Counted from the first letter of the stretch, positions 28,325-60,053 are shown. The stretch: 64,000 bases of DNA from Homoserinimonas sp. OAct 916 (GCF_003260275.1 NZ_QJHB01000003.1:1-64000); one strand, 5' to 3'. Numbers and translations are program-made. The notes: generated by a model not told the origin, from the sequence alone.

Positions 28325-28691
28325 ATGCCCACCGGCAAAGTCAAGTTCTACGACGAAGACAAAGGTTTTGGCTTCATCACCTCCGATGACGGCCAACAGG
28401 TCTTCCTCCACGCCTCGGCGCTCCCGGCAGGGACCACCTCCGTCAAACCGGGCACCAAGCTCGAGTTCGGGATCGCCGACGGTAAGCGTGGTGCCCAGGC
28501 GCTCTCGGTGCGCATCCTCGAGGCTCCGCCGACAATGGCGCGGCTGAATCGCAAGGCGGCGGACGACATGGTGGTCATCGTCGAGGATCTGGTGAAGGTT
28601 CTCGACGGAATCGGTACCGACCTTCGGCGCGGGCGGTACCCGGAGAATGCGCACAGCCGAAAGATTGCCTCCCTGCTGCGAAAGGTCGCTG

Positions 28692-28708
<17 letters not shown>
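28325..28708 (+). CDS. Cold-shock-domain protein with C-terminal extension
   Basis: The 127-aa protein has an N-terminal cold-shock OB fold (1-65) with RNP1 KGFGFI and RNP2 VFLHAS. After residue 68 comes a helical extension (MARLNRKAADDMVVIVEDLV, then DGIGTDLRRGRYPENAHSRK) absent from canonical 67-aa Csp proteins but usual in the actinobacterial form that precedes DUF3027 genes. It likely acts as an RNA chaperone. Its last codons overlap the start of the DUF3027 gene. An AGGAGGATCACACAC-type Shine-Dalgarno region precedes the ATG. Confidence 0.92.
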
Positions 28709-29657
<949 letters not shown>

Positions 29658-40552: not shown

Positions 40553-40667
40553 TCTGCCCCAGGCTGCCGCGGCGGCCGAGTATTGCCGTGCTGGGCGCAC
40601 GCTGGGAAATGGAACATGCCCGGCCCCGTTGACCGAGATTGGGGGCATGCGCATTTAGGGTGGCCAT

Positions 40668-43600
40668 GTGTGGAGACTCGACAAGAAACACGCAGGAGGC
40701 GACATCCTTACCGAACGCACGGATGATGCTGACCCCGAACTGCAGACAGAAGGCGGCCTGGCGCTGCATCCTTCAGCGAGCCCTCACGCCGTGAGCACCG
40801 GCGATCCCGGGGTGCCCGCGGGAAACATCGCGGAGCCCGAATGGCAGCGGTGGCGCGAGGAACTCCAGTCGCTGGGCGGCCGTTCGCCGCTGCTGCACTT
40901 CTCCGACGCACCGCGCACCCGCATCGAACTCAGCACCACGCACCCGGGGGGACTGCCACAGTTCATCACCGGCCATTCGGTGCTGCTGTCGAACCTGATC
41001 CGTGATGATCTCGCGCTCAGGAACGCTCGGGTCGCTGCCAGCGCCATCACGGCCAAAGGTGTCGAACTGCGCACCGTTCGTGGGATCGAAGCAGTGCACC
41101 TCGCGATCGGTCTGGCCCACTGGCGACACGAGGGTGAAGAGTTCACGGCACCGGTACTGCTCCGCCCGCTCGCGATCAGGCGCTACGGTCGTGACTTCGA
41201 ACTCAAACTCAAGGGCCAGCCGTTCCTCAACCCAGAACTCGCGCGGGCGCTGAGCGAACAGTTCCAGATCACTCTCGACGCCAACGCCTTCGTCGCCCTC
41301 GCTCTGACGAACGGAGAATTCAAACCGCAGCCGGTGATCGACCGCCTGCGCGGACTGACCTCCCACTTGCAGTGGTTCAACGTCGAGCCCCGGTTGGTGG
41401 TCTCCAGTTTTGCCTCGGTGAGCGCCGACCTGTTGGCCGATGCGCGGGACCTCGACCATCCGATTCTCGACGCTGTCGCCGGAAACCCGACCGCGCGGCA
41501 GGTTGTGGCCTCCGCCGGACTGAACGCAACAGTGACCGGGCAGGACGAGCGTTCTCCGTCGCTGGACACGCTGCTGCTCGACGCAGACACCGAGCAGGAA
41601 CAAGCGATCGCCCACATCGCAGCCGGCTCCTCGCTGGTCGTGAAGACGCTGCCCGGAACGGGTGGAACCCAGACGATCGTCAATGCGATCGGTGCCCTGG
41701 TCTCGCAACATAAGCGCGTATTGGTGGTCAGCCCGCGCAAGTCCAGCCTCGACGGTATCCGCCATCGGTTGGCGCAGGCGCAACTCACGGGAATGGCCGT
41801 GTCGGTCAAAACGCTCCGGCGTGACCTGATCCACTCGATCGCGCGCAACGAGAAGGCTACCGAGCCCGCGATCTCCGAGGTGGACGACGCCCTGGTACGC
41901 CTGCGCAAGGTGCTGCTCGATTACCGCGGGGCGCTGCAACGCACAGATCGGGTTCTGGGAGTCTCCGTGCTCCAGGCGTTGGACCAACTGACGCGGTTGG
42001 CCCAGTTGCCGGTCGCCCCCACCACCAGGGCACGGCTCGACCGGCAATCGATCCAGGCGCTCGCCCGTGGGCGCGAGGAGATTGCGGCACTGTTGGTGAA
42101 GGCCGCTGCGTTGGGGGAGTTCCGTTACGGTCCCGACGATTCGCCCTGGTACGGTGCCTCATTCTCGACCACCGAGGAAGCCACCGAGGCCCACGAACTC
42201 GCCAAGCGGCTCAATGAGATCCAGCTGCCTCGACTCCTGGCCCGGGCCTACGACGTGATCGGGCAGACCCGGATGCGCCCCTTCGAGTCGATCGCCGAAC
42301 TCGGCATCTACCTGCGCCTGCTCATGGACATTCGAGAGACACTGGATCGCTTCAGGCCGGCAGTGTTCGACCGTCCGCTGACCGAGTTGATCGCCGCCAC
42401 TTCCTCGAAGCGGGAATCTCCCCAGATGTCGGGGGCGAATCGACGGCGCCTGCGCAAACTGTCCAGGGAATACCTGCGGCCGGGGGTGCATGTCACCGAT
42501 ATGAACGCGAGCCTGAGGAAGATCCAGCAGCAGCGCACGCTGTGGCAGCGGTATGTCGCCGCCGGCACCACGCCGCAGTTGCCGACCGGCATCGCTGACG
42601 TGCAGGTCGCCTACCAGCGGGTTTCGGGAGACCTGGCTCAGCTCGATACCCCACTGGGCACTCTCGGAACCGCGTCTGAACTTGCGGGCCTGCCCATCGG
42701 CGAACTCGTGAACAAGATCGCTGGGCTCTCCGCAGAGTCTGAGGTGCTCGCGAACCTTCAGGAGCGCACCGCGATTCTCAGTCGACTGCATGCGCTCAAC
42801 CTCGAGCCATTGCTCGAAGACCTCGCCCACCGCCACGTCGCCGAGGAGAACGTTGCCGACGAGTTGGAGAACGCCTGGTGGCAGTCGGTCCTCGAATCGA
42901 TGCTCGCCGACGAACGTGCCCTGTTGAACGCGAACACCAAGGTCGTCGATCGCCTGGAGGCAGACTTCCGGCTGGTCGACGAGGCCCATGCCAAGGCGAA
43001 CGGCCCACTGCTGGCATGGAAGCTCTCCGAGACCTGGAAGATCGCGATGGTCGACTTCCCGCAGGAGACCGAACGCATCCGCGCACTTCTCAAGTCGGGA
43101 GCAACCACCCCAGCGAGTCTGGAGGGCCAGGCGCCCAACCTGGCGCGTATCCTTGCCCCGGTCTGGCTGGCCTCACCCTATGAGACACACACGATTCCGA
43201 CCGGTGCTAACTTCGATGCCGTCTTCCTTGTCGACGCCGGTGCCACCACGTTTGCTGAGAACATCGGCGCCATCCGGCGTGCCCGCCAGGTGGTGGCGTT
43301 CGGAGACCTCGTCACGCAGACGCCGTCGGCATTCAACATTGGCGTGGTCGAGGGCCAGGACGGCCAGCCGGAGGCCGACGTGGACGAGATCCACGCCGAT
43401 TCCGCGCTCTCGCGGCTGGGTGCACTGCTGCCGTCGCTCACACTCACCCGCAGCTACCGCGCGGGAGGTGAAGACCTGGCCGAATTGGTGAACCGTCGCT
43501 TTTACGGTGGCCGCATCGAGTCACTGCCGTGGGCGGGGACCTATCTCGGGCACGACAGCCTCAAGCTGCACCACGTGGCCGACGGTCGGGGTATGCCCGA

Positions 43601-44447
43601 CCCGGAAACCGGAACCGTCGAGAGCGTCGACGCCGAAGTGGCCCGGGTGGTCGAGTTGGTGCTCGACCACGCCACCAATCGGCCCAAGGAATCTCTGATG
43701 GTCATCACCGCGAGTGCTCGCCATGCGGTGCGCGTGCACCAGGCAGTACTCGCTGCGTTCTCCCGTCGTACTGAGCTGAGCGAATTCATCCTGTCCGACC
43801 GTGCCGAATCGTTCACTGTTGCCACGTTGCAGGAGTCTGTCGGGCAGAGCCGGGACCGAGTGATCTTCTCGATCGGTTACGGTCGCACCCCACATGGGCG
43901 GTTGCTCAGCGACTTCGGGGCGCTGGCCGAGCCGGGCGGGGAGAGGTTGCTCGCCGTCGGAATGACCTGTGCTCGCCGTTCGATGGCCATCGTCTCCTGT
44001 TTCACCCCTGAGGACATTGACGTGTCGCGGATGAGGCACGGTATCGCAGCACTTGCCCGTGTGCTTGCCGAGACGGCAGCACTCGATACCGCAGATCAGC
44101 CCGAATCAGAGGCCGAACCGCTTTTGGTCGACCTGGTGGCGCGCCTTTCCCGAATGGGAATCACAGCCAAGCTCGGGCACCGCGGAAAGCTCTCGTTGGT
44201 GGCCACGCACGCCGGTCGCGCGGTGGTGGTCGAGACCGACACGGTGGTTGGCGCCCGTAGCCTGCGCGAGTCCCTGCGGCTGCGACCAGTGGTGTTGCGG
44301 CGACTGGGCTGGCACTATTTGAGGGTGCACAACTTCGAACTCTTCGCCGATCCGCAAGCCGTGGCGTCTCGGATCGCCGCCCTGATCGGTGTGCGCGACG
44401 TCTCGACAGCCACGGGGCCGATCCCGGTTCAGCCGGACGGCCAATAG
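40668..44447 (+). CDS. DUF4011/SF1-helicase-like protein with degenerate ATPase motifs
   Basis: This 1259-aa protein has an N-terminal DUF4011-like domain (about 60-240: HLAIGLAHWRHEGEE, APVLLRPLAIRRYG), a split DNA2/UvrD-like helicase core and a C-terminal region (about 1150-1240) resembling REase_MTES_1575. Motif I reads LPGTGGTQ with Gly333 instead of the essential Lys, and motif II reads FLVDAGAT with Asp856-Ala857 instead of DE. Motif IV-like TRSYRAGGEDLAELV, V-like VATLQESVGQSRDRVIFSIG and VI-like GMTCARRSM remain. TAGGGT at 40656 and GTG 40668 suggest a leaderless start. Likely a non-hydrolysing scaffold or DNA-binding protein (inference). A 78-aa gene follows 19 bp later. Confidence 0.8.
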   Translation: MWRLDKKHAGGDILTERTDDADPELQTEGGLALHPSASPHAVSTGDPGVPAGNIAEPEWQRWREELQSLGGRSPLLHFSDAPRTRIELSTTHPGGLPQFITGHSVLLSNLIRDDLALRNARVAASAITAKGVELRTVRGIEAVHLAIGLAHWRHEGEEFTAPVLLRPLAIRRYGRDFELKLKGQPFLNPELARALSEQFQITLDANAFVALALTNGEFKPQPVIDRLRGLTSHLQWFNVEPRLVVSSFASVSADLLADARDLDHPILDAVAGNPTARQVVASAGLNATVTGQDERSPSLDTLLLDADTEQEQAIAHIAAGSSLVVKTLPGTGGTQTIVNAIGALVSQHKRVLVVSPRKSSLDGIRHRLAQAQLTGMAVSVKTLRRDLIHSIARNEKATEPAISEVDDALVRLRKVLLDYRGALQRTDRVLGVSVLQALDQLTRLAQLPVAPTTRARLDRQSIQALARGREEIAALLVKAAALGEFRYGPDDSPWYGASFSTTEEATEAHELAKRLNEIQLPRLLARAYDVIGQTRMRPFESIAELGIYLRLLMDIRETLDRFRPAVFDRPLTELIAATSSKRESPQMSGANRRRLRKLSREYLRPGVHVTDMNASLRKIQQQRTLWQRYVAAGTTPQLPTGIADVQVAYQRVSGDLAQLDTPLGTLGTASELAGLPIGELVNKIAGLSAESEVLANLQERTAILSRLHALNLEPLLEDLAHRHVAEENVADELENAWWQSVLESMLADERALLNANTKVVDRLEADFRLVDEAHAKANGPLLAWKLSETWKIAMVDFPQETERIRALLKSGATTPASLEGQAPNLARILAPVWLASPYETHTIPTGANFDAVFLVDAGATTFAENIGAIRRARQVVAFGDLVTQTPSAFNIGVVEGQDGQPEADVDEIHADSALSRLGALLPSLTLTRSYRAGGEDLAELVNRRFYGGRIESLPWAGTYLGHDSLKLHHVADGRGMPDPETGTVESVDAEVARVVELVLDHATNRPKESLMVITASARHAVRVHQAVLAAFSRRTELSEFILSDRAESFTVATLQESVGQSRDRVIFSIGYGRTPHGRLLSDFGALAEPGGERLLAVGMTCARRSMAIVSCFTPEDIDVSRMRHGIAALARVLAETAALDTADQPESEAEPLLVDLVARLSRMGITAKLGHRGKLSLVATHAGRAVVVETDTVVGARSLRESLRLRPVVLRRLGWHYLRVHNFELFADPQAVASRIAALIGVRDVSTATGPIPVQPDGQ

Positions 44448-44466: not shown

Positions 44467-44703
44467 ATGACTGAGTCTGAGCCCGCCGGTGAGGCGGTAA
44501 GCGAGCCTCGCATCCAGAGGGTTCCGGGCACGAGCAGACGTGTGCGCTATTCTGCCGATTCGATCGAGGCTGTGGCGCAGAATGTGTCACTTAACACACA
44601 GCCGCCCGAACCGTCAGCAGACAGCACGAACCAGGCGTGGCACGACCCTGACGACAACAATGACGACCGCCTGAGGCGCGACAAGCCTCCGCACTGGAGT
44701 TGA
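44467..44703 (+). CDS. Small acidic protein of unknown function
   Basis: The 78-aa hydrophilic protein (MTESEPAGEAVSEPR start, RLRRDKPPHWS end) lies 19 bp after the DUF4011-like gene and probably shares its transcript. The RRDKPPHW ending looks like a conserved motif of short actinobacterial proteins, but no family name is known to me. It is predicted largely disordered, with no membrane segment or signal peptide. Confidence 0.65.
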   Translation: MTESEPAGEAVSEPRIQRVPGTSRRVRYSADSIEAVAQNVSLNTQPPEPSADSTNQAWHDPDDNNDDRLRRDKPPHWS

Positions 44704-44715
44704 GCGGAAATTCGG

Positions 44716-45123
44716 TCAGGGAGTGTGTTTGCCGTCGCTCGTTATCGCCGGCGTTGCCAGCAGATCGCGAATGTCGGCCAGAAGTTCCAGCTCGGTCGCC
44801 TCCGCGGGAGTTGCTTCCTTCTCCTTGGCGAACTTCGTCATGAAATGGTTCAGCGGCACGACGAACAGGAAATAAACGGCCGCGGCGATGATGACGAAGT
44901 TGATCACAGCACCGAGGAAGGCCCCGAACAGGATCTGGCTGTTTCCGATGGTCACGACCATCGCCTTGTCTAAGCTGTCTGCTTTGAAGATGGAACTGAT
45001 CAGCGGGTTGATCACGTTGTCGACCAACGCGGCCACGACCGCAGCGAAGGCTACACCAATGACGAACGCCACCGCGAGGTCCACGACATTTCCGCGCAGT
45101 AAGAACTCTTTGAAGCCTTTCAC
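44716..45123 (-). CDS. mscL: Large-conductance mechanosensitive channel
   Basis: The 135-aa MscL begins MKGFKEFLLRGNVVDLAVAF (N-terminal amphipathic helix and TM1, with the glycine/alanine packing face), a periplasmic loop (about 45-70), TM2 (FGAFLGAVINFVIIAAAVYF) and a C-terminal helix bundle. It opens under extreme turgor to release solutes. Convergent with the 78-aa gene and downstream of FmdB on the same strand. Confidence 0.96.
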   Translation of the reverse strand: MKGFKEFLLRGNVVDLAVAFVIGVAFAAVVAALVDNVINPLISSIFKADSLDKAMVVTIGNSQILFGAFLGAVINFVIIAAAVYFLFVVPLNHFMTKFAKEKEATPAEATELELLADIRDLLATPAITSDGKHTP

Positions 45124-45210: not shown

Positions 45211-45609
45211 TTATTTCTGGGCGTTCGAGGTCGAACTCGTCGCGGAGCGCCCGGCCTTCGAGCCGGATCCTGAATCCTTGCTGCCGGACCCACTGCTGCC
45301 GGATCCGCTGCCGCCGGGGTTCGCCGACGGCTTTGGTATCTTCGACTGGCCGGACGAGTCCTTACCGGTCGAGCTCTCTTTTCCGCTTGGCTTCTCAGAA
45401 CTCTTGTGTACCGGCAGTTTGCCCGATGGCTGGTCGCGAGAGTCGGTGCGGTAGAAACCAGACCCGACGAAGGCTACCCCGACGGGGCTGAAGACCTTGC
45501 GCAGCACTCCGCCACAGGCGGGGCAGACCGTGAGCGACTCATCGGCGAAAGATTGTTGGATATCAAACTCATGGGCGCAGTCTGTGCACAGGTATGAGTA
45601 AGTGGGCAC
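45211..45609 (-). CDS. FmdB-family zinc-ribbon protein
   Basis: The 132-aa protein has an N-terminal FmdB/CxxC_CXXC_SSSS zinc ribbon (MPTYSYLCTDCAHEFDIQQS, then TVCPACGGVLRKVFSPVGVA) with the two Cys pairs, followed by a long Ser/Gly/Lys-rich low-complexity tail ending TSSTSNAQK. FmdB proteins are putative regulators; function unproven. The tail sequence SSGSGSKDSGSGSK is coded by short internal repeats. It is upstream of mscL with an 87-bp gap, a frequent actinobacterial pairing. Confidence 0.88.
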   Translation of the reverse strand: MPTYSYLCTDCAHEFDIQQSFADESLTVCPACGGVLRKVFSPVGVAFVGSGFYRTDSRDQPSGKLPVHKSSEKPSGKESSTGKDSSGQSKIPKPSANPGGSGSGSSGSGSKDSGSGSKAGRSATSSTSNAQK

Positions 45610-45632
45610 GTGTGGTTCCTTACAGTCGATGT

Positions 45633-45736
45633 GGCCAGTCGATGCGGCCAGTCAGTGTGGTCAGTCAGTGTGGTCAGCCTGTGTGGCCAGTCAGTGTAGC
45701 CAGTCAGTGTGGCCAGCCTGTGTGGCCAGCCAATGC
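45633..45736. repeat. 13-bp tandem array between 5-FTHF cyclo-ligase and fmdB
   Basis: Eight 13-bp units with consensus GGCCAGTCAGTGT: 45633-45645, 45646-45658, 45659-45671, 45672-45684, 45685-45697, 45698-45710, 45711-45723 and 45724-45736, each with 0-4 changes. It is downstream of the cyclo-ligase gene and just upstream of the FmdB gene, so it may lie in the fmdB 5' region. Confidence 0.9.
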
Positions 45737-45783
45737 GGTGACGCAAAGCGGCCTACCGGTCATTCACCAGAATACCGGCTCGC

Positions 45784-46362
45784 TCAGAACGGGATGACCC
45801 CGCCCGGTGTGACGACGCCGTCGACCGGTTGGTCGTGCAACTCCCTCGGCACACTGTCGACCAGCTCGTGGTCAAAGATCACCGCGAACACGGGCGGCCT
45901 GCGATCCATCGAACCGAGTGTCTTGTCGAAATAGCCTCGCCCCCATCCCATCCGCAGGCCATCACGCCCCACCGACGCGGCCGGCACGATGATCAGGTCG
46001 ACGTCATTGATCGCTATCGGGCCCAGCAGGTCTCCCCGGGGTTCTGGGGTGCCGAAGAGCCCATCGGTCTCGGCCCCGGGGCCACCGACCGTCCAATCCA
46101 ACAAGCCGTCCTCCCTGGAGATCGGGAACAGGACGCGGATGTCATGATCCTGCGCCCAGTTGAGGAACGGCCGGGTGTTGGGCTCATTCGGAGTGGGCAG
46201 GTAGCAGGAGATCGACCGGGCGTTCAGACCGCTCACGAGTTCGATCAAGTGGCCGGTGAGCCCGTCGGTCGCAACGTCCTTCTCCAGTGCGGTCATGTTT
46301 CTCCGACGCTCGCGCAACTCGGCGCGCAGGGCCCGTTTTTGATGACTCGGGTCGCTGTTCAT
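45784..46362 (-). CDS. 5-formyltetrahydrofolate cyclo-ligase
   Basis: The 192-aa enzyme converts 5-formyl-THF to 5,10-methenyl-THF with ATP. It contains KRALRAELRERRRNM (N-terminal basic helix), the ISCYLPTPNEPNTRPF strand region and the C-terminal GRDGLRMGWGRGYFDKTL, the glycine-rich ATP/folate loop. Start ATG 46362 has TAGAGT 7 nt upstream (leaderless). It is divergent from galU, an arrangement widely conserved in actinobacteria, where the next genes are GNAT and SepX. Confidence 0.93.
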   Translation of the reverse strand: MNSDPSHQKRALRAELRERRRNMTALEKDVATDGLTGHLIELVSGLNARSISCYLPTPNEPNTRPFLNWAQDHDIRVLFPISREDGLLDWTVGGPGAETDGLFGTPEPRGDLLGPIAINDVDLIIVPAASVGRDGLRMGWGRGYFDKTLGSMDRRPPVFAVIFDHELVDSVPRELHDQPVDGVVTPGGVIPF

Positions 46363-46369
46363 GCAACAC

Positions 46370-46455
46370 ACTCTAGTTGAACGGGTCTGACGAGACCGAG
46401 CGGGCACGGCTCGGGCGATGACAGCGACACCGATTGCCCGATACGCTCAGAAGCA
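46370..46455. promoter_or_regulatory. Divergent leaderless promoters for the cyclo-ligase gene and galU
   Basis: Leftward: TAGAGT (complement of 46370-46375), 7 nt, ATG 46362. Rightward: TACGCT (46442-46447), 7 nt, ATG 46455. Neither start has a Shine-Dalgarno. Confidence 0.5.
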
Positions 46456-50053: not shown

Positions 50054-53000
50054 ATGGGGGAGCCGATTGCGGCGTTAGACCCCCGCCCAGAATCAAATCC
50101 GGCGAACGAGCAGGGGGATTCTGAGAATCCCGAATCATCTGTCGTTTCACTTTCCCTTGGAGATAGTCCCTTGTCGCGTGCCTCCGCCCGTGTTTTCCTG
50201 TCTGCCCCTTTGAAGAAGAACTCTCGCACCCGCACCGTCTGGCGTGCCGCGTGGGCGATGGTTCTCTCTGTCGCCCTTGCCGGGCCAATGGCCGGTTCCT
50301 TCGCCAACGTGGCGTTCGCCGCTGAGGGCGCCCCGGAGTATCTCACCGTCGAGAAGCACGTCGACAACCATGAACTCGCGCCTGGGGAACCGTTCACCTA
50401 CGAGATAGACGTGCGCTGCTCCGAACAGTCCTGTATCGCAGCGAACCTCACCGATGCGCTGCCGCCGCAACTCGCCGGCTATGCGATTCAAAGTGTGGAC
50501 ATGGTGCCGGGCGATTCTGTTGTTCCCCGCAACGTGAGGTGGATCGTCGGCGGTGAGACCAGCGCGAACCACCCCGCGATCGCGACGGCAGACACCGTGC
50601 TGAGTGTCGACTTCACCGGTGTCACGTCCGCCCCGACCGGGGTGGGCATGCAGAGCGGCCAGAACCTCACAGTGTCGATCACCCTGCAGGTTCCAGACAC
50701 TGTCGAGCCTGGCTCGATCGAGATCACGAACACCGCCACAACCTCAGCAACCAACTCCGCCCCCGACTCGTCGAGCGCTGTCATCACCGTGACCAACCCG
50801 ATCCTGATCGGCGTCGGCGCCACCAAGAACTGGTCGCCAAGCACACAATCGTTTGATGAGGGTGCGGCATCGACAATCGGCTTACAGGTCACGAACACAT
50901 CAAACGTGCCAGTGAAGACGCTCGTGCTGCAGGAGCCGAAGGCCGCCGAAAACGGCGACACTCAGCTGGATGCCAGCAACCCCTTCACGATCACCGATTT
51001 CGCCGGCTTCGCGAACGCCACTTTGCCTGCCGGTGCCGAATCTGTGCAGGTTGACCACTTTCTGAAGCAGGCCGACGGCACCTGGGAGTGGGTGGAAGGT
51101 ACCCCTGACACCGCTTTGGAGTTCCCTTCAGGTATTGACCCGGCCACCGGCGGTATTCGCATCACCTACGCCGGTGAGGCAATTGCCCCCGGCGCCGCCG
51201 GCTCGGTCGACCTCGGCCTCGCGTTGCGTGCCCGGCACCGCAACACCGATGCAGACCTTTCCCTAGGCACACACGAAGTGAAAAACATTGTCCAAGGAAC
51301 CGCAGTGCCTGGCGACGACCGCGACCCGGTTTCCGAAATCGCGACCGCCGACTACAAGGTCACGCCGGTCGCCATCGACACGTCGATCACCAAGAACATC
51401 GCACCCGACCGAATCTCTGCCGGAGAAAGCTCCATTGCGTCGATCACCGCCACCAATGAGTCTGCGGGCGGGGTCAAAGAACTCACCATCTCCGACCTCG
51501 GGTACTTCACCGAGGAGATCACCTTCGGCGGATTCACGGCAGCCCCGAGTTGGCCCACAGGTGCGACCGGTGCGGTCGTGACCTACCACGCCCTCGACGG
51601 CACTCCCTCAGGGACAGTCACCTTCGCAGAGAACGAGGTTCCCGCTGCTCCTGGAACCAAGATCTCCGGTTTCGAGATTGTCTACACGGCAGCAGTTGGC
51701 CACATTTCGTCGGCATCCAGCTCGACGGTCACATTCACGATCGACACCACCGAAGCTGCGGTGCTCGCACCCGCGACCTCACTGGTCACCACGAACACCG
51801 CAACATCGAAAGTGACCGCATCCAACGACCAGACCGCAACGGCCACTGACTCAGATGTGCTCACCCTGTTGCAGCCCGCGATCGCTGTGACCCTCACCAA
51901 GTCGGTGCGTCCGTCAATTCCCGTTCAAGCCGGTGACCCGGTGATCTCCAAGCTCGAGGCCAAGCTGACCACCAGCTCGGACTATGTCACCACGACCCAG
52001 ATCGTGGTGGAGGACTCCTTGGTCAACCCGGAGTCGACCAGCGAGTTCTGGAATGCGTTCAACCTGTCCGCCGTCGCACCGACTCAGGTGCCGGCCCAAA
52101 CGGCACTCACCATCCAGGTGCAGAGCTCGGACGGTTCCTGGCAGACACTTGAGGTGTTCCCCTCAACGCCCGCAGCATTCATCGCACAGATGACGAAGAC
52201 AGAGATTGAGGCCGCGCTCCCATCTGGAGTCAACATCACCGACCTGACCGGCATCAGATTCACCTTCGACAACGCGGCTGGTTTCTCTGCCGACACCAAT
52301 GTCACACCGTATGTCGTGTCCGAGGCGCGTGGTGCACTGCGCGCCGGAGGAGGGGTGACTGCAGTCGCAGCAGTGAACCCGATGCCGGTCGAATACACGA
52401 ACACGGCCACCACCACCGGAACCGGCGCCACCGATATCGGTACGCCGCTCGAAGACACTGACACCGACACCGGCACGGCGCAGATCATCGCCTACCCAGG
52501 TGGCCCTGGGGGACCCGGCACCGCGAACATCGAGAAGAGCTGGGACAAGAACTCTGTGTCGGCACAGTCGGGTGAGCGGGCTTCGACGACGCTCGACTGG
52601 CGCGTCGGCCGGGGCTTCGAGACGGTGACAATCGCAGACCCGAGCACAGACCCGATCAACCCTCCTGACCCGGCAAACTCCGTGTTCGCGGCGTTCGATC
52701 TGGTGGGAGTGAACGCGATCGCGGCCTCCAACACCGAGTTCAGCAACGGTTGGTTCCTCAAGTACGACACCATCACGGCGGTCGAGCTCTGGAGCACCAG
52801 CGCTGGCGCCTGGCAGGCAGCCGCAACAACCCCGCACAACGGATGGGTTCACAATGGGGCATTTGCCGGCTACAACTTGACCGAGGCGGAGCGCGCCGAC
52901 ACCACAGGTGTACGCCTCGTGCTCGCAGAGAACTCCGATGCACGCCACGCTGCTGCTGAGATCGGCTCCGCCTTCGACCCCTACGCTCCTGCCCCGGGAA

Positions 53001-56000
53001 CCGGAGTGGCCGCGAGTAGCGCTGACCGACAGTTCACCCTGTCGTGGCAGATTCGCAACATTCAACGACCTGCCACGCCCGACGTCGCGTTCGTGACCAG
53101 CACGGCGGTCTATAACTCGGCCGATGCGGGTGTCGTCGACAACACGGTGTCCATCGATGCGAAACCGAGTACCGGGGATTCCGTCCGCGATACCGCGAAT
53201 GACACGATCTTCATCATCGACCCACCCACGGGCGTCTCGGTGACCAAGACGGTCACACCCACCACGCCAATCTTCGTGCCGTTCGCCGGCACTGATGCCG
53301 AGGACTACCCGAACGCGACGTTCACCCTGACCGCGAAGAACGACTCCATCGCGGCGGCCTCATACGTGCGGGTCACCGATCCTGCGACGTGTGAAGACAC
53401 CGTGCCCGTCGAGCAGTGCCAGACCCCGGGCACGGCCACTGGCGCGGTCCAGAACCCGTTCAGCGCTGTCGTCGACAATAATGTTTCGACCGTCGCCGGG
53501 TTCGGCAGCCCGTTCCAGCAGTTCGACCTGAAGAACGTCACTATCGCCGCGAGCATTTCGAACCAGGTTGACCTTTCTGCATCAACTGTGTGGTTGCTGC
53601 GATACAGCGGGGGAGAATTCTCCGAACAAGAATCGACCGCCACCGCCGTCAACGCGATGAGCGCAGCCGATCTCGCCACCGTTGTCGGAATCAGTGTCAC
53701 CTTCCAGGGCGCCGACCCGGCGACAACTGCCGGAACGATCACCCAGGCGAACAATCTGACGGTCGTGCTCGACACACAACTGCGCAAGACGCTTCGCTCT
53801 ACTGGCGCGCCGCAGGTTCTGGCCGCCGGAAAGTCCGTCGATGTGCTGAACCGTGTGTTCGCCCAATCGTACGATCCGGTCTTGTTCCCCGGACCCGACG
53901 GTCAGACGAACGGCGCACGCGCGAATGCGACCGCGCGGCTCACCGGCGGCGACCTCAACGTCGGCCCCAGCAAATCGGTCACACCGACCTCTCTCACCGA
54001 ACCGACTCGCGGCACCGAAATCACGGTGACCCTGGGCGCCAACCAGGGGGTGGCACCAGTGAGCACTCTGGCTCCCGCCGAGGTTCGGCTGCAGGACGAC
54101 AGCGTCTCCTCTCCGGAGTTCTGGAACCAGTTCGACTTCACTGGGCTCGGTACGATCGTGGCGCCGGCAGGGGCCGACCGGGTACAAGTTGACGTGTTCG
54201 GGCCGTTCGGCACCGACGACGTACTGGAATGGGCGACGGGATCTCCGGCCGCGGTTGCTGACGCCGAGGTGTCGATCGACGCGAGCGAATACTCCGATGT
54301 GCAGGGAATCCGATTCACCTTCACGAGATCTGACGGCGGCTACTTCTCCGATTCGTTGCCTGCACCGACCTGGTCGAGCACTGCCCGGTTCACCGTGCAA
54401 CTGCGCGATGTCTACCGCGAATCGAACGAGGCTGTCGTTCTCGCCGGCTCCGTCGACAACACGGTTGTGGTTCAGAGCCTGCGCAAGGACGGCGAAGAAT
54501 CTGAGGAACGTGCGGCCACGGCCCGCGTGAACCTCAGCCCGGGTACGTTCCAACTGCAGGTGAACAAGCTCACCAACAACGGCAACCGGGTCGCGAACGT
54601 CGGAGACCTGGTGCCCTGGGATCTCACCTTCCGAAACAACGGAACCGGGTTCCTCACCATTGCCGAGTTACGGGACTTTCTCCCAGCAGAGTTGCTCTAC
54701 ACGGGGGTTGAACCGGTCTACAGTGGCCCGGCCGGTGGTCTCTCCACCGACGTGACGCTGGTCCAGGACGGCCAGAAGCTTGTGTTCACCTGGCCGGAGG
54801 AGGGCCGACGGATGGCTCCTGGAGAATCCTTCTCCATCAGAGTCGCGCTGGAACTCCAGCCGGGGCTGGCCTCGGGTGGTCACGCCGTCAACGAGATGAC
54901 GGTCACCACCGACCAGGTGTTGCAGTCGTGCTCGAACACGGTGCCGACCGGCGCCACCACCGACGCGTGGACGAACGACAAGACCACCTGTGGCACAACC
55001 GATTATGTTGCCCCGAAGAGCGGCCCGAACCTGTTCACCGTCAAGGGAGTGAGCGGCTCATTGCCCGGTGCCTACAACCCGGGCAATGCCAACCAGACGT
55101 GCGCCGCGACCCTGAGCGCAACCGACGGGGACTACTTCCGCGCCCCCTGCGTGGCACACAGCAAGATCGGTGGGACCGACGATTGGGTTCTGCGGGCGAT
55201 CAATGCTGGAACCGTCACGGTCGACAGCGTGACAATCTTCGACCAGCTCCCTGTTGCCGGCGACCAGTTCTTGATCTCCGGTGCAGATCGCAGCTCGGCC
55301 TACCGTCCGCAGATGATCGCGGGCACCCTCAAGGTCACGGCGCCCTCGGGGACCAACTCCACGATCGAGGTTGCCACATCAAGCGGCGTCTGCGCCGGAA
55401 CCTGGGGCAACCTGCTCAACCACGAGCCATGTGCCCAGAACGGCGAGAACTGGGCTCCGGTCGACTCGTCGACCGACTGGTCGGCAGTATCCGGCTTGCG
55501 CGTTACCCTGGACTTCAGCGAAACAGCTGCGCGAGTGTTGGCGGCCGGTGAGTTCGTCGATGTCACCTTCAGCACCATCAATGTGCCCGCATCGGAAGCA
55601 GATCCCACGGGCGCGCCGTCAGCTGTTCCCGGCACCGATTCGCTCGCCTGGAACCAGTTCGGGGCGAAGTATCAGCACACGGGCCGCACGGAGGCCAGCA
55701 AGTTGTCACCTGGCCGAGTGGGCGTGCATCTGCTGTTCGGTGCTATCGAGATCGTGAAGGACGTCTCCGGGCCAGCTGCCGGCTACGCGCCGGATGAGTT
55801 CCTGGCCGATGTGCAGTGCAGCATTGAAGACGTCGATCTGGACATGAGTTCGTTCGAAACGATCACGCTGTCGAGCGAGAATGAGTTCACACAGCGCATC
55901 GATGGAATCCCCTTTGGAGCATCGTGCACGGTCACCGAGCAGGGCGAGGTCGGCGAGTTCGGCGAGACTTCGCGTACCGGAACCCCGGTGACGCTGCTGG

Positions 56001-57631
56001 TCAACAACGTGACCACGGCTGATGATGCCGTTCCGGCCGGGCAAATCGCCACGATCGGCAACGTCTACGAGTTCTCTGGCCTGTCGGTCACGAAACTCGT
56101 TGAGACTGAAGCCGATCTGGGCGAGTTCGGCCCGTTTAACTTCACGTTGAGCTGCGAGTCCTCCCTGGGCTCGCCGGTCACGTTCGATGAGAACGGATCG
56201 ACACTCCTCGAGTTCGCGCTCGCCGGCGGTGACACGTTCACCGCGCCGGAGAACACGATCCCCGTGGGCTCCACCTGTTCGCTGGCCGAGGTGGGAACAT
56301 CCGCCGCCGATGACATCGTCATCGTCGGCACAGATGTGACCGACGGCGGCGACGGCAGCGCGACGATCGGGGTGGGCGCCGTGCACGCCGAGGTGACCGT
56401 CACGAACGGCTATGACTCGGGCATCCTCACCGTGACCAAGGTTGTCGACGGTGACGGCGCGCAGCTGTACGGCGCCGGACCGTTCGAGTTCAACGTGCTG
56501 TGCACCTACCAGGGCCAGAAGTTGCTCTCGGCGACATTCGAGCTGGACGCGAATTCATCGCGCACGTTCGGCACCTTCCCGGCGGGCACATCATGTGCCG
56601 TTGAAGAGACGGCCACCGGGGGCGCCAACCTCACAGTGCTCGACCCGGCTGATGGCATCGTCGTCATCCCTTCAACGGCCGAGGGCGACGATTCGGTTGC
56701 TGAGGTTGCGATGACCGCCACGAACACCTTCCAGCTGGGCTCGCTGCAGCTGGAGAAGGTTGTTGACGGCGCCGGCGCCAAACTCTACGGAGCCGGACCG
56801 TTCACCGCCGATGTGAGTTGCACCTGGGAGAAGGACGGCGAGACGCTGGCGATCCCACTCGCGAACGACGGGATGGTGCAATTGTCTGAGGCGAACGATT
56901 ACACCAGTGTGATCGGCAACCTCATCGTCGGTGCGACGTGCGCTGTCGAGGAGACGGCCACCGGTGGGGCGACCCACAGCGCGCTCAGCCCGGCAGACGG
57001 GGTCGTCACGATCACCGACTCGATTGAAGCGCCTGTGACCGTCACCCTGACAAACACGTTCGATGTCACAGCACTTCAGGTGACCAAGGTGGTCGAGGGC
57101 AACCTCGCGGCCGAGGGCGCTGACGGTCCGTTCACGGTTTCGCTGCAGTGCACCTGGCCTGTTGACGGAGTCGATGAGCCGGTCGCCATTCCCGGTGGCG
57201 CAGAGCGCCTGCTGCAAGCGCCCGACACCCTGGTCGTCAGCTACGACGACCTGCCGGTCGGTGCCACGTGCGACCTGACGGAGACCGAGACCCAGGGCGC
57301 CGACGGCACCTCGATCACGGTTCAAGTCGCCGGATCAGACACTGTCAAGACCGAGGGGGTGACCGCCACCATCGAGCTTGCGGGCACGGGGGATGCGGAG
57401 AACGCCCAGGCCACGATCACCAACACGTTCGACGCCGACCTCTCCGATGACGGAGATGAGGGCCCACCCGGTGACGGAGGTGATGGCCCTCTCGGTGACG
57501 GGATCGCCACAACCGGCGCGAACATCGGGCTGCTGCCGCTGATCTCGGGAATCCTCATTCTGGGCGGTGGACTGATTGTGGGCGCGATGTACCTGATCCG
57601 TCGCAGGCGCGAGCAGGTCGGTCAGAACTGA
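50054..57631 (+). CDS. Giant cell-surface protein with DUF5979 repeats and sortase-like tail
   Basis: The 2525-aa protein has a 50-residue extended leader, a signal peptide (cleavage likely after AFA at about residue 90), a large central region of six to seven diverged ~200-residue beta-rich repeats (each with a VTKTVTP/ITKNIAP-type start and an FWNxFxL and GIRFTF signature), and five C-terminal DUF5979 domains (about 1898-2470) that start with VTKVVDG-type strands and carry paired cysteines. The tail has an Asp/Gly linker, IATTG at 2484-2488, a hydrophobic helix and RRRREQ. IATTG resembles the LAxTG signal of class E sortases, so wall anchoring is likely. Probable adhesin or S-layer-like stalk. 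Confidence 0.85.
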   Translation: MGEPIAALDPRPESNPANEQGDSENPESSVVSLSLGDSPLSRASARVFLSAPLKKNSRTRTVWRAAWAMVLSVALAGPMAGSFANVAFAAEGAPEYLTVEKHVDNHELAPGEPFTYEIDVRCSEQSCIAANLTDALPPQLAGYAIQSVDMVPGDSVVPRNVRWIVGGETSANHPAIATADTVLSVDFTGVTSAPTGVGMQSGQNLTVSITLQVPDTVEPGSIEITNTATTSATNSAPDSSSAVITVTNPILIGVGATKNWSPSTQSFDEGAASTIGLQVTNTSNVPVKTLVLQEPKAAENGDTQLDASNPFTITDFAGFANATLPAGAESVQVDHFLKQADGTWEWVEGTPDTALEFPSGIDPATGGIRITYAGEAIAPGAAGSVDLGLALRARHRNTDADLSLGTHEVKNIVQGTAVPGDDRDPVSEIATADYKVTPVAIDTSITKNIAPDRISAGESSIASITATNESAGGVKELTISDLGYFTEEITFGGFTAAPSWPTGATGAVVTYHALDGTPSGTVTFAENEVPAAPGTKISGFEIVYTAAVGHISSASSSTVTFTIDTTEAAVLAPATSLVTTNTATSKVTASNDQTATATDSDVLTLLQPAIAVTLTKSVRPSIPVQAGDPVISKLEAKLTTSSDYVTTTQIVVEDSLVNPESTSEFWNAFNLSAVAPTQVPAQTALTIQVQSSDGSWQTLEVFPSTPAAFIAQMTKTEIEAALPSGVNITDLTGIRFTFDNAAGFSADTNVTPYVVSEARGALRAGGGVTAVAAVNPMPVEYTNTATTTGTGATDIGTPLEDTDTDTGTAQIIAYPGGPGGPGTANIEKSWDKNSVSAQSGERASTTLDWRVGRGFETVTIADPSTDPINPPDPANSVFAAFDLVGVNAIAASNTEFSNGWFLKYDTITAVELWSTSAGAWQAAATTPHNGWVHNGAFAGYNLTEAERADTTGVRLVLAENSDARHAAAEIGSAFDPYAPAPGTGVAASSADRQFTLSWQIRNIQRPATPDVAFVTSTAVYNSADAGVVDNTVSIDAKPSTGDSVRDTANDTIFIIDPPTGVSVTKTVTPTTPIFVPFAGTDAEDYPNATFTLTAKNDSIAAASYVRVTDPATCEDTVPVEQCQTPGTATGAVQNPFSAVVDNNVSTVAGFGSPFQQFDLKNVTIAASISNQVDLSASTVWLLRYSGGEFSEQESTATAVNAMSAADLATVVGISVTFQGADPATTAGTITQANNLTVVLDTQLRKTLRSTGAPQVLAAGKSVDVLNRVFAQSYDPVLFPGPDGQTNGARANATARLTGGDLNVGPSKSVTPTSLTEPTRGTEITVTLGANQGVAPVSTLAPAEVRLQDDSVSSPEFWNQFDFTGLGTIVAPAGADRVQVDVFGPFGTDDVLEWATGSPAAVADAEVSIDASEYSDVQGIRFTFTRSDGGYFSDSLPAPTWSSTARFTVQLRDVYRESNEAVVLAGSVDNTVVVQSLRKDGEESEERAATARVNLSPGTFQLQVNKLTNNGNRVANVGDLVPWDLTFRNNGTGFLTIAELRDFLPAELLYTGVEPVYSGPAGGLSTDVTLVQDGQKLVFTWPEEGRRMAPGESFSIRVALELQPGLASGGHAVNEMTVTTDQVLQSCSNTVPTGATTDAWTNDKTTCGTTDYVAPKSGPNLFTVKGVSGSLPGAYNPGNANQTCAATLSATDGDYFRAPCVAHSKIGGTDDWVLRAINAGTVTVDSVTIFDQLPVAGDQFLISGADRSSAYRPQMIAGTLKVTAPSGTNSTIEVATSSGVCAGTWGNLLNHEPCAQNGENWAPVDSSTDWSAVSGLRVTLDFSETAARVLAAGEFVDVTFSTINVPASEADPTGAPSAVPGTDSLAWNQFGAKYQHTGRTEASKLSPGRVGVHLLFGAIEIVKDVSGPAAGYAPDEFLADVQCSIEDVDLDMSSFETITLSSENEFTQRIDGIPFGASCTVTEQGEVGEFGETSRTGTPVTLLVNNVTTADDAVPAGQIATIGNVYEFSGLSVTKLVETEADLGEFGPFNFTLSCESSLGSPVTFDENGSTLLEFALAGGDTFTAPENTIPVGSTCSLAEVGTSAADDIVIVGTDVTDGGDGSATIGVGAVHAEVTVTNGYDSGILTVTKVVDGDGAQLYGAGPFEFNVLCTYQGQKLLSATFELDANSSRTFGTFPAGTSCAVEETATGGANLTVLDPADGIVVIPSTAEGDDSVAEVAMTATNTFQLGSLQLEKVVDGAGAKLYGAGPFTADVSCTWEKDGETLAIPLANDGMVQLSEANDYTSVIGNLIVGATCAVEETATGGATHSALSPADGVVTITDSIEAPVTVTLTNTFDVTALQVTKVVEGNLAAEGADGPFTVSLQCTWPVDGVDEPVAIPGGAERLLQAPDTLVVSYDDLPVGATCDLTETETQGADGTSITVQVAGSDTVKTEGVTATIELAGTGDAENAQATITNTFDADLSDDGDEGPPGDGGDGPLGDGIATTGANIGLLPLISGILILGGGLIVGAMYLIRRRREQVGQN

Positions 57632-57668: not shown

Positions 57669-57728
57669 GCCTGTGGGCGACCCCCAGCCGAAGACCCGTA
57701 TGATGGCCTCATCAAATGGGAGGTGTGC

Positions 57729-60053
57729 GTGCTGGCCGAATCGGGAGCAGCGGCATGGGTTCAACGCCAGCCACTGCAGCAACATCCGGCCTGGCAGCGG
57801 TTCAGAAGCAAGAACGACGGACGGCGGCAGGTGCTGCTCATCCACGCGCCGCCCGGGACGGGCCGGCGCTTGTTTGCCCGGTCATGGGCCGCCGAGGAAC
57901 GCGTGCACGACTGCTCGACACTTTCCGACGACGATATCGTCGCCATTGCGACGAAGGCGCATGATTCGGGCGAGGCGCACGCGATCATCACCCCTTCCAG
58001 GGCAACAGTGTGGGCGGTGGCAGAGGTTGTGCCCTGCCTGTTCGCCGACGCAGCTGACCTGATGCTCTCACGCGATGAAATCTTCTCCTGCCGCCCGGCG
58101 GCCACGATCTCAGGCCATGCGATGGCAGACACGATATATCGGGTATGCGGGGGTTGGTACGAGGCCGTTCGCCGTTTCCACCTCGATCCCGACGACACCG
58201 AGGGGGCCTACGCCGTTCTCGCCGGTTCGCTGATCCCATGGTTGCGCATGCACGGTGACGCCCTGGACTGGTATCAGATCGCGTTGTTGCCGGTCATCGA
58301 CGAGGATGTTCTTGATGCGCTGAAGCGCGAGTCGAGCGGGAGCGGCCTCACTCTGCGCGAGCTTCGTAGCAGCGGCATAGCCCGACCAGATCCAGAGGGC
58401 GCCTGGTTCGTGCCCGCTCTCGTTCGGCAGGCGATTGAGGATTGGGCGGGTGCCCGACATCCGGGGGAGGTGGGGCGACGCGGCGATGTTGTGGTCGCTG
58501 CCCTGGCTGAGTCGGGAGAAATGGACCATGCGATCGGTGCGGCGTTCCACACTCGCGCGTGGGGATCGCTTCGAACGCTGATGTTTGACCGGTGGGCCGA
58601 AATGTTCACTTCGAACCCGCAACAGCTCTTTCGCGTCGCAGCTCGGTTTCCCCGGAGGCTCAAAGACCGCACCGATGGTTTCGCGGTGGCCCTGCGCGTG
58701 CTTGGCGCTGCGGGCCGCGAACGCATGAACCTGCCGCTGCCGAGCTTCAGGCCGGACTATGACAACGACGCGACCGCTCACCAGCTGCGCGCTCGCGTGG
58801 AATACCTCAACCGTCGTCCCAACAGTCATGCGCTGACTGTCGGCCTGATCGAGCTCGGACATTTGCGCCTCTCCGCCCACTTCTCAGAATCCGCCGACGC
58901 GGCCAGGCGGCTTCGAGTGACGTTGGACCGTGCGCTTGGTGCGCACCAGATTCGCCCTTCGTTGGCTGCGCTGACCGAAATACAAGCGGGGATCTCGCTC
59001 CACCTCGCCGATCACGCAACCGAGGCACAGCACGCGTACGAATCTGCGCGACACTGGGCAGTGTCTGCTGATCACCCGTTCCTGCAGGCGAACGCGACCG
59101 CGAACCTGGCGTCGCTCGCGGGACACCGCGGTGACACCGAGTCGCTTCGGCACTGGCTGGGCGAGCACGACCTCGTTGCCCAGCGTGTGGGCTGGGGGCG
59201 GCGAATGGTCGGCCGCACCGCGGATCTCGCACGCGGGCAACTCGCCGTTGCCGAGCTCGATTCGGCAACGCTGAACCAGGTTCTTGCCGATTTGCCGACG
59301 CAGTTGGACAACGATGAATTCTGGCCCGTGCACCTGTCACTCATCGGCATGGCCCAGATTCTGAACGGAGACGCCGAAGGCGCCCGTGCGTGCGTTGAAG
59401 CGACTCGGGCTGAAAGAACACACGCAGCGTGCTCTGACCTTGCCCGCCGATTGTTCGACACGACAACGCACTTCGCGAAGCTGGTCACGAGTTCTTCCGA
59501 CAGAGATGAGTCGCGGGCCCAGTGGCCCGAATTCGTGGCGATCGATGCGGTGAAACACCTTCGGGATGGGCATCCGGATCTGGCGCTGGCCCTGATCGGC
59601 CCGCTCATGTCGACCGCGATCCAGCCGCGCCAGAGGAACCCGCTGCTTCATCTCAGTGTGCTCGCGCGCAACGGGGGAGCGCTCGATGGCCCGGCGACGT
59701 CTGAGATCAGGCAGACTCACCAGAGCTCGGGCGAACTGATTGACCTTGTGCCACTTCACCTCCTCGGTCATTCCGAGGCCCTCGCCCTGGCAGGACTGAT
59801 TTCCCCGGAACACTGTGAGCGGCTGAACGTGATTCGAGTGCCGCCGCGGGGTGGGGCGAACAGAGCGCGATTGACGGAGCGAGAACTCGACGTTCTGCAC
59901 CGGCTGCGGCAAGGACTGAACCGCCGTGAGATCGCTGAGACCAGTCATCGGTCGGAGAACACGGTGAAATCGCAGATCCGTACGCTCTTCCGCAAGCTCG
60001 ACGCGGGTTCGACTGCAGAAGCACTCGAAATCGCGCGTCGCCACGGTTACTAG
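57729..60053 (+). CDS. LuxR/MalT-like transcriptional regulator with broken P-loop
   Basis: The 774-aa regulator follows the giant surface gene by 97 bp. Start GTG 57729 is preferred because GGGAGG lies 5 nt upstream; GTG 57723 has no room for it. An N-terminal ATPase-like region has LLIHAPPGTGRRLFARSW, a P-loop lacking the GK[T/S] lysine, then a TPR-like helical middle (about 250-690) and a C-terminal LuxR HTH (LTERELDVLHRLRQGLNRRE, SHRSENTVKSQIRTLFRKLD). MalT/LAL proteins are ATP-dependent activators; this one may be ATP-independent. It may control the adjacent surface gene (inference). Confidence 0.88.
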   Translation: MLAESGAAAWVQRQPLQQHPAWQRFRSKNDGRRQVLLIHAPPGTGRRLFARSWAAEERVHDCSTLSDDDIVAIATKAHDSGEAHAIITPSRATVWAVAEVVPCLFADAADLMLSRDEIFSCRPAATISGHAMADTIYRVCGGWYEAVRRFHLDPDDTEGAYAVLAGSLIPWLRMHGDALDWYQIALLPVIDEDVLDALKRESSGSGLTLRELRSSGIARPDPEGAWFVPALVRQAIEDWAGARHPGEVGRRGDVVVAALAESGEMDHAIGAAFHTRAWGSLRTLMFDRWAEMFTSNPQQLFRVAARFPRRLKDRTDGFAVALRVLGAAGRERMNLPLPSFRPDYDNDATAHQLRARVEYLNRRPNSHALTVGLIELGHLRLSAHFSESADAARRLRVTLDRALGAHQIRPSLAALTEIQAGISLHLADHATEAQHAYESARHWAVSADHPFLQANATANLASLAGHRGDTESLRHWLGEHDLVAQRVGWGRRMVGRTADLARGQLAVAELDSATLNQVLADLPTQLDNDEFWPVHLSLIGMAQILNGDAEGARACVEATRAERTHAACSDLARRLFDTTTHFAKLVTSSSDRDESRAQWPEFVAIDAVKHLRDGHPDLALALIGPLMSTAIQPRQRNPLLHLSVLARNGGALDGPATSEIRQTHQSSGELIDLVPLHLLGHSEALALAGLISPEHCERLNVIRVPPRGGANRARLTERELDVLHRLRQGLNRREIAETSHRSENTVKSQIRTLFRKLDAGSTAEALEIARRHGY

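Follow-up and report, generated by a model that had tools for sequence, protein, structure and literature searches.

Proteins that combine a DUF4011 domain, a superfamily 1 (SF1) helicase motor and a Vsr-like nuclease domain include the anti-phage proteins ProA (NF058533) and Hhe (NF042953) and the PADLOC candidate system PDC-S37. Such folds can also serve in inactive form, as in RecC, the RecBCD subunit in which helicase and nuclease are both dead and which is used for nucleic-acid recognition. Experiments have shown that the PriA protein of Deinococcus radiodurans has lost its ATPase and retained binding of DNA and of DnaB (PMC4504706), and giant proteins of the MTES_1575 type have the order HEPN-transglutaminase-SF1-Vsr-wHTH (PMC3710099). 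Here we describe a gene of related architecture at 40668..44447, on the plus strand of a 64,000 nucleotide (nt) stretch of DNA from Homoserinimonas sp. OAct 916 (the window; coordinates are counted from its first letter). Its product no longer has what is required to use ATP, yet nearly every member of the order keeps one copy, even those with small genomes, and it therefore very probably has an important non-enzymatic job. This job is apparently undescribed: the literature covered, which included the DUF4011 and MTES_1575 papers and lay largely outside subscription journals, yielded no account of the group.

Comparison with these systems places the window protein apart from each of them. It shares the DUF4011/SF1/Vsr-like architecture of ProA, Hhe and PDC-S37, with clear homology, but the models of these proteins span about 1550-1900 amino acids (aa) against 1259 aa here, and the present gene belongs to the core genome, descends vertically and has dead motifs; these homologues are not of the same family. 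The MTES_1575-type giants have an SF1 motor and a Vsr-like domain in common with the window protein, as distant homologues, as do three relatives of 2,000-2,140 aa (L062, L063 and L064) from 3 genera of the same family, which are likely to be accessory proteins of MTES_1575 type; both differ in being longer, ATPase-intact and rare in the family. RecC resembles the window protein in that its helicase- and nuclease-like folds are both inactive and used in nucleic-acid recognition, but it has UvrD-like ancestry and is part of a known complex. D. radiodurans PriA likewise keeps a helicase fold, has lost its ATPase motifs lineage-wide and is a single core gene, although it belongs to another helicase family, has a known partner and process and carries no nuclease-like domain (PMC4504706).

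Loss of the catalytic motifs

The family to which the window belongs was read as Microbacteriaceae (f1) from named loci of Leifsonia, Cryobacterium, Agromyces, Clavibacter, Rathayibacter and others; other families are cited by codes (f5, f18, f38 and so on). Motif residues were counted in 48 aligned family sequences and, separately, in 80 named loci, and the search for related loci used an alignment of the family only. Orthologues from f5 and f18 (e.g. L043 and L044), a sister clade with the same order of DUF4011, SF1B motor and REase_MTES_1575 and with mscL and fmdB adjoining, differ from the window protein in having intact ATPase motifs and an intact nuclease triad. They read GTGKSQT, DEAS, QGDERD and TRAR, with a D..ExD triad, and their matches to Pfam AAA_11, AAA_12 and MTES_1575 all exceed the cut-offs. 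Scattered single substitutions aside, the motifs are intact in f5, in 11 of the 14 sequences from f18 and in the one relative each from f36 and f45.

Alignment with these orthologues bears out the original prediction of a glycine in place of the Walker A lysine at residue 333 (41664-41666), within an otherwise well preserved motif I, PGTGGTQT (residues 329-336; 41652..41675, plus strand). The lysine is found in none of the 48 family sequences (Gly in 37, Ala in 3, Ser in 2, Tyr in 2, others in the remainder) and is missing from all 80 named loci; when the window is added to these, 76 of the 81 have Gly. Motif II, FDAVFLVDA (residues 849-857; 43212..43238, plus strand), aligns without gaps to FDVVVFDEA of intact orthologues, and over a longer stretch 'FDAVFLVDAGAT' aligns, again ungapped, to 'FDVVVFDEASQV', which sets VDAG opposite DEAS. 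Walker B had rightly been called destroyed, but the change had been placed one residue too far along, as Asp-Ala for Asp-Glu at 856-857; the replacements are Asp to Val855 and Glu to Asp856. The Walker B aspartate is absent from all 48 family sequences, which have Val, Leu or Ala instead, and 47 of the 48 have Asp at the glutamate position. With Gly333 and Val855-Asp856, the window protein lacks the Walker A Lys and Walker B Asp-Glu by which an active SF1B helicase is recognised. Motif V is changed from QGDE to VGQS, its glutamate being absent from the family (0/48), and in the motif VI region LLAVGMTCARRSM (residues 1094-1106; 43947..43985, plus strand) the arginine of TRAR is a cysteine, where 44 of the 48 family members have Arg. 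Preserved in the family are the motif III Gly (47/48) and Asp (48/48), the motif IV Arg (48/48) and the second motif VI Arg (48/48).

The nuclease-like domain, REase_MTES_1575 (PF18741), lies at 44145..44387 on the plus strand (about residues 1160-1240) and scores 22.2 bits, below the Pfam cut-off of 38.2. It had been said to lack an obvious catalytic pattern, which holds for the first metal-binding, catalytic Asp but not for the later E-x-D, which is retained; the last nuclease Asp is present in 48 of 48 family sequences. Both the score and the missing first Asp set the domain apart from an active nuclease of this family.

In other families the lost lysine is replaced by Gln (f6), Ala (f7, f8, f15, f19), Arg (f38) or Leu/His (f16), among others. 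Among sequences scored for both centres, 15 keep the lysine and an intact triad, 14 have lost the lysine with the triad intact (f6, f7, some f12, f15, f16, f18), 88 have lost both, and 3 keep the lysine with an altered triad, as do the three giants in the residue table. Loss of the ATPase thus seems to have preceded loss of the nuclease. We note that in f6 and f7 (L038-L040, L251-L254, L257 and L280) the ATPase motifs are gone and a full D..E.D triad is present. Such forms are possible ATP-independent nucleases, and may represent an intermediate state.

Distribution, descent and selection

The gene is present in all 59 genomes compared, this one and 58 relatives, which cover all 36 genera of the family, and is full length in nearly all of them, being split over two contigs in one draft. 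An order-wide profile search matched 391 of the 396 genomes searched, 377 of the 379 that are near-complete, and 109 of 110 genera, although some of the weaker matches may be to giant paralogues and not to orthologues. Within the order, even genomes of 0.8-1.1 Mb keep the gene, including one of 0.93 Mb (L033) that we take to be Tropheryma whipplei. The gene is single copy, and this genome holds no paralogue. The original prediction had offered inhibition of active relatives as one function; that candidate was rejected for want of a paralogue, and giant active relatives occur in only 3 of the 35 other family genera. Beyond the order, some families have full-length relatives (many f38 genomes, for instance), and most of the others sampled have none.

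In a tree of 124 rows, built with the motif columns excluded, 23 changes suffice for the 24 family labels, the fewest possible, which argues for vertical descent. The intact f5 and f18 copies occupy the same mscL-fmdB locus (e.g. L087 and L088) and are therefore positional orthologues. Together they form a clade whose sister clade (support 100/99) unites the other families sampled from the order, all of which have lost the ATPase; loss is also seen within f18 (L227, L231, L238) and in f38 and f25. Parsimony counts 3 changes, and well-supported branches force 2. A strict claim of three independent losses did not hold, as an approximately unbiased (AU) test, run on 43 rows and half the columns, retained a single 'lost' clade (p 0.144). 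The loss thus appears to take in the supported sister clade just described and to recur at least once elsewhere, with a single 'lost' clade still allowed by the AU test. Given intact orthologues at the same locus and intact relatives in the outgroup, the ancestor of the gene was probably active.

Selection was compared as dN/dS (nonsynonymous over synonymous rates, NG86) on close pairs with dN < 0.1, of which there were 158 for this gene and 124-137 for the neighbouring genes. Because NG86 becomes saturated in GC-rich genomes, the values serve only to compare genes on the same pairs: 0.132 for this gene, 0.120 for galU, 0.121 for the 5-formyltetrahydrofolate (FTHF) cyclo-ligase gene, 0.139 for rimJ, 0.138 for fmdB and 0.284 for mscL. 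Purifying selection on this gene is about as strong as on galU. Within it, dN/dS is lowest in the two motor halves (0.092 and 0.086) and the nuclease-like part (0.098), and is 0.129 in the helical insert. None of the 80 named loci has an internal stop. Selection for a non-catalytic function, as originally predicted, is strongly supported by the loss of the ATPase throughout the family and across most families of the order, together with a dN/dS near that of galU. Intact orthologues in sister strains combined with relaxed selection would have pointed instead to a decaying gene; no intact orthologue was found within the family and selection is not relaxed, intact copies being confined to other families. 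Decay of a once-active gene in this strain has next to no probability, since the additional motif VI Arg to Cys change that the window shares with few relatives is outweighed by a frame intact in all sampled family genera and by the dN/dS and absence of stops just given.

Predicted fold

The open reading frame (ORF) for 1259 aa is real and unbroken, as had been claimed, with a GTG start and 0 internal stops. The naming of its domains as DUF4011, helicase and MTES_1575-like also stands, in that DUF4011 (PF13195; 41073..41246, plus strand; residues 136-193, within an N-terminal domain of about residues 50-300) scores 22.5 bits by Pfam hmmscan, marginally above the cut-off of 22.2, and that AAA_11, AAA_12 and REase_MTES_1575 are matched below their cut-offs. 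An AlphaFold2 (AF2) model of residues 60-1259, from 47 alignment rows, has a mean predicted local distance difference test (pLDDT) score of 77.7 and a predicted template modelling (pTM) score of 0.59. Aligned with VIA-align to PDB structures, it matches IGHMBP2 (Z 20.0), Dna2 (19.4), Upf1 (18.8), Senataxin (17.7) and Aquarius (17.2); the sequence profile also matches Upf1, SMUBP-2 and Dna2, and the nuclease-like end is barely covered by the structural matches. The predicted fold is that of an SF1B-type motor, flanked by an N-terminal domain and a C-terminal nuclease-like domain and containing a large insert. The insert (about residues 401-830; 41868..43157, plus strand), mostly helical in the AF2 secondary structure, separates motifs I/Ia from motif II.

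Function of the conserved protein

A helicase fold, supported by the AF2 comparison with the PDB and by the sequence profile, is here combined with lineage-wide loss of ATPase residues (Walker A Lys, Walker B Asp and motif V Glu) and with purifying selection, the features expected of a pseudohelicase. By analogy with D. radiodurans PriA and RecC, we consider it reasonably probable that the protein is an ATP-independent nucleic-acid-binding scaffold in housekeeping nucleic-acid metabolism. It would descend from an active protein, with DUF4011, an SF1B helicase of Upf1/IGHMBP2/Dna2 type and a Vsr-like nuclease, at the mscL-fmdB locus. The ATPase centre would have been lost in an ancestor shared by most of the order's families, and nuclease residues later in several branches, Microbacteriaceae among them. 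Selection would have retained the motor-like fold with its two lobes, together with the N-terminal domain, the insert and the nuclease-like fold. Presumably without ATPase and nuclease activity, the protein would most likely bind nucleic acid without ATP in the groove of the dead motor, as a clamp or scaffold that picks out a structure in DNA or RNA and brings in partners. Computation shows the conservation, vertical descent, motif loss, purifying selection and fold class, from which the binding and the scaffold role are inferred; the housekeeping step served would be replication or repair, or possibly transcription or RNA turnover.

Several points weigh against this interpretation. The pTM of the model is only 0.59, and we infer essentiality from retention. 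Of 235 columns invariant in the 14 intact sequences, 114 show the same residue in 85% or more of the family and 90 a different one in the majority, ATP-site residues being among those changed; as half of the columns invariant in the active form are not kept, function may have shifted. Most family members retain the arginines of motifs IV and VI, as well as the Thr that follows the lost Lys, so that nucleotide binding is possible.

This last point leads to the alternative that survives best, though we regard it as unlikely: a nucleotide-gated switch that uses the replaced residues to bind, or slowly hydrolyse, ATP or some other nucleotide, rather than a dead scaffold. The sequence GTGxTQT around the lost lysine is highly conserved in the family, 47 of 48 members have Asp at position 856 in place of Glu, the motif III Gly-Asp and motif IV Arg are present in almost all and the motif VI Arg in 44 of 48, and the motor parts are the most constrained. 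However, the Walker A Lys, Walker B Asp and motif V Glu are each gone in 48 of 48, other families have unrelated replacements of the same residues, and the window protein is also without the motif VI Arg.

The original prediction had linked related forms to defence, and a core-genome defence or surveillance protein that detects invading DNA without the use of ATP and sets off some other response would fit the architecture shared with ProA, Hhe and PDC-S37. The scores against these models (295.8, 142.8 and 324 bits, respectively) are far under the curated cut-offs for ProA (1500 bits) and Hhe (2000 bits). Defence genes are normally patchy and mobile. As this gene is vertical, near-universal, single copy, retained in genomes of 0.8-0.9 Mb and set among housekeeping neighbours, with a tree that tracks taxonomy, a defence role is quite unlikely; universality, single copy, synteny and tree all fail to support a mobile defence gene.

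Less probable again is a factor associated with RNA polymerase or the ribosome, HelD-like or Upf1/Sen1-like, in place of a DNA repair scaffold. The nearest folds are indeed SF1B helicases of RNA and DNA (IGHMBP2, Upf1, Senataxin, Sen1), complexes of HelD with RNA polymerase appear lower in the list, and the motor is split by a large helical insert. The HelD matches, however, are weak (E ~2e-6) and of a kind common to any SF1 motor, and no gene linkage to transcription is present.

The locus and the small downstream gene

A box resembling a -10 element, TAGGGT (40656..40661, plus strand), stands 6 nt 5' of the GTG and is a probable leaderless promoter. All 49 family loci in which a 'VWR' start can be recognised have a TANNNT box 4-9 nt 5' of the GTG, where shuffles expect 1.8; because of this conservation the GTG start is probably right and the mRNA probably leaderless. 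A scan for promoter and terminator consensus sequences gave nothing clearly exceeding chance.

Downstream, convergent with the gene, lie mscL (44716..45123, minus strand; Pfam MscL, 1.9e-33), a gene that we take from family knowledge to be fmdB-like (45211..45609, minus strand) and another, presumably for a 5-FTHF cyclo-ligase-like protein on the same ground (45784..46407, minus strand), all three conserved neighbours by synteny. The order helicase-like gene, small gene, mscL(-), fmdB(-), FTHF cyclo-ligase(-), galU, rimJ is kept across the order, with losses in some families, and mscL-fmdB adjoins the orthologue in nearly all sampled Microbacteriaceae genera; the upstream side is not conserved.

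The small gene (44467..44703, plus strand), 19 bp 3' of the large one, encodes 78 aa ending in '..DDRLRRDKPPHWS' (tail match 44599-44700). This tail is a class-wide actinobacterial '..GWGE..DDRLLRxRPPHW', here in a stand-alone copy next to mscL and belonging to no Pfam family. Its profile finds about one copy per genome, in 38 of 40 relatives and 76 of 118 class genomes, and the copy here is the only one in this genome. In several families the PPHW tail forms the in-frame C-terminus of the helicase protein (25 of 124 rows, with 13 state changes on the tree). The PPHW gene precedes mscL across the class, including in genomes without any helicase match, and is therefore an old resident of the locus; in these helicase-free genomes the genes upstream of it are mutually unrelated where they can be named. 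The gene had been called a tiny partner, and it is a conserved neighbour that has been repeatedly fused, but it is older and also occurs where no helicase is matched. A dedicated partnership is weakened by this class-wide position and by the ease with which adjacent genes on one strand fuse; a functional tie to the helicase-like protein is plausible. Tentatively, and with more doubt than confidence, the protein could be seen as a core, possibly essential part of an undescribed nucleic-acid machine, with the ATPase lost in the ancestor of most families, enzyme and pseudoenzyme at the same locus, and the PPHW protein, separate or fused, as a partner.

Elsewhere in the window, the region at ~45600-45780, between fmdB and the FTHF cyclo-ligase gene, is repetitive, and ORFs there read 'WPHRLATLT...' and 'CGQPVWPVSVAS...'. 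An ORF at 28647-29657 has a very long Asp run at its C-terminal end, and a repeat-rich, surface-protein-like ORF of 2525 aa (50054-57631) is followed by a LuxR-type regulator-like ORF (57723-60053).

Implications

Automatic labels of 'helicase' or 'defence' on these proteins would mislead. The ATPase-intact, the ATPase-dead but triad-intact and the doubly dead forms at one syntenic locus offer a natural series for the change from helicase-nuclease to scaffold. The presence of a pseudoenzyme of ~1200 residues in nearly every member of the order, minimal genomes such as that of Tropheryma whipplei included, points to an unrecognised core process.

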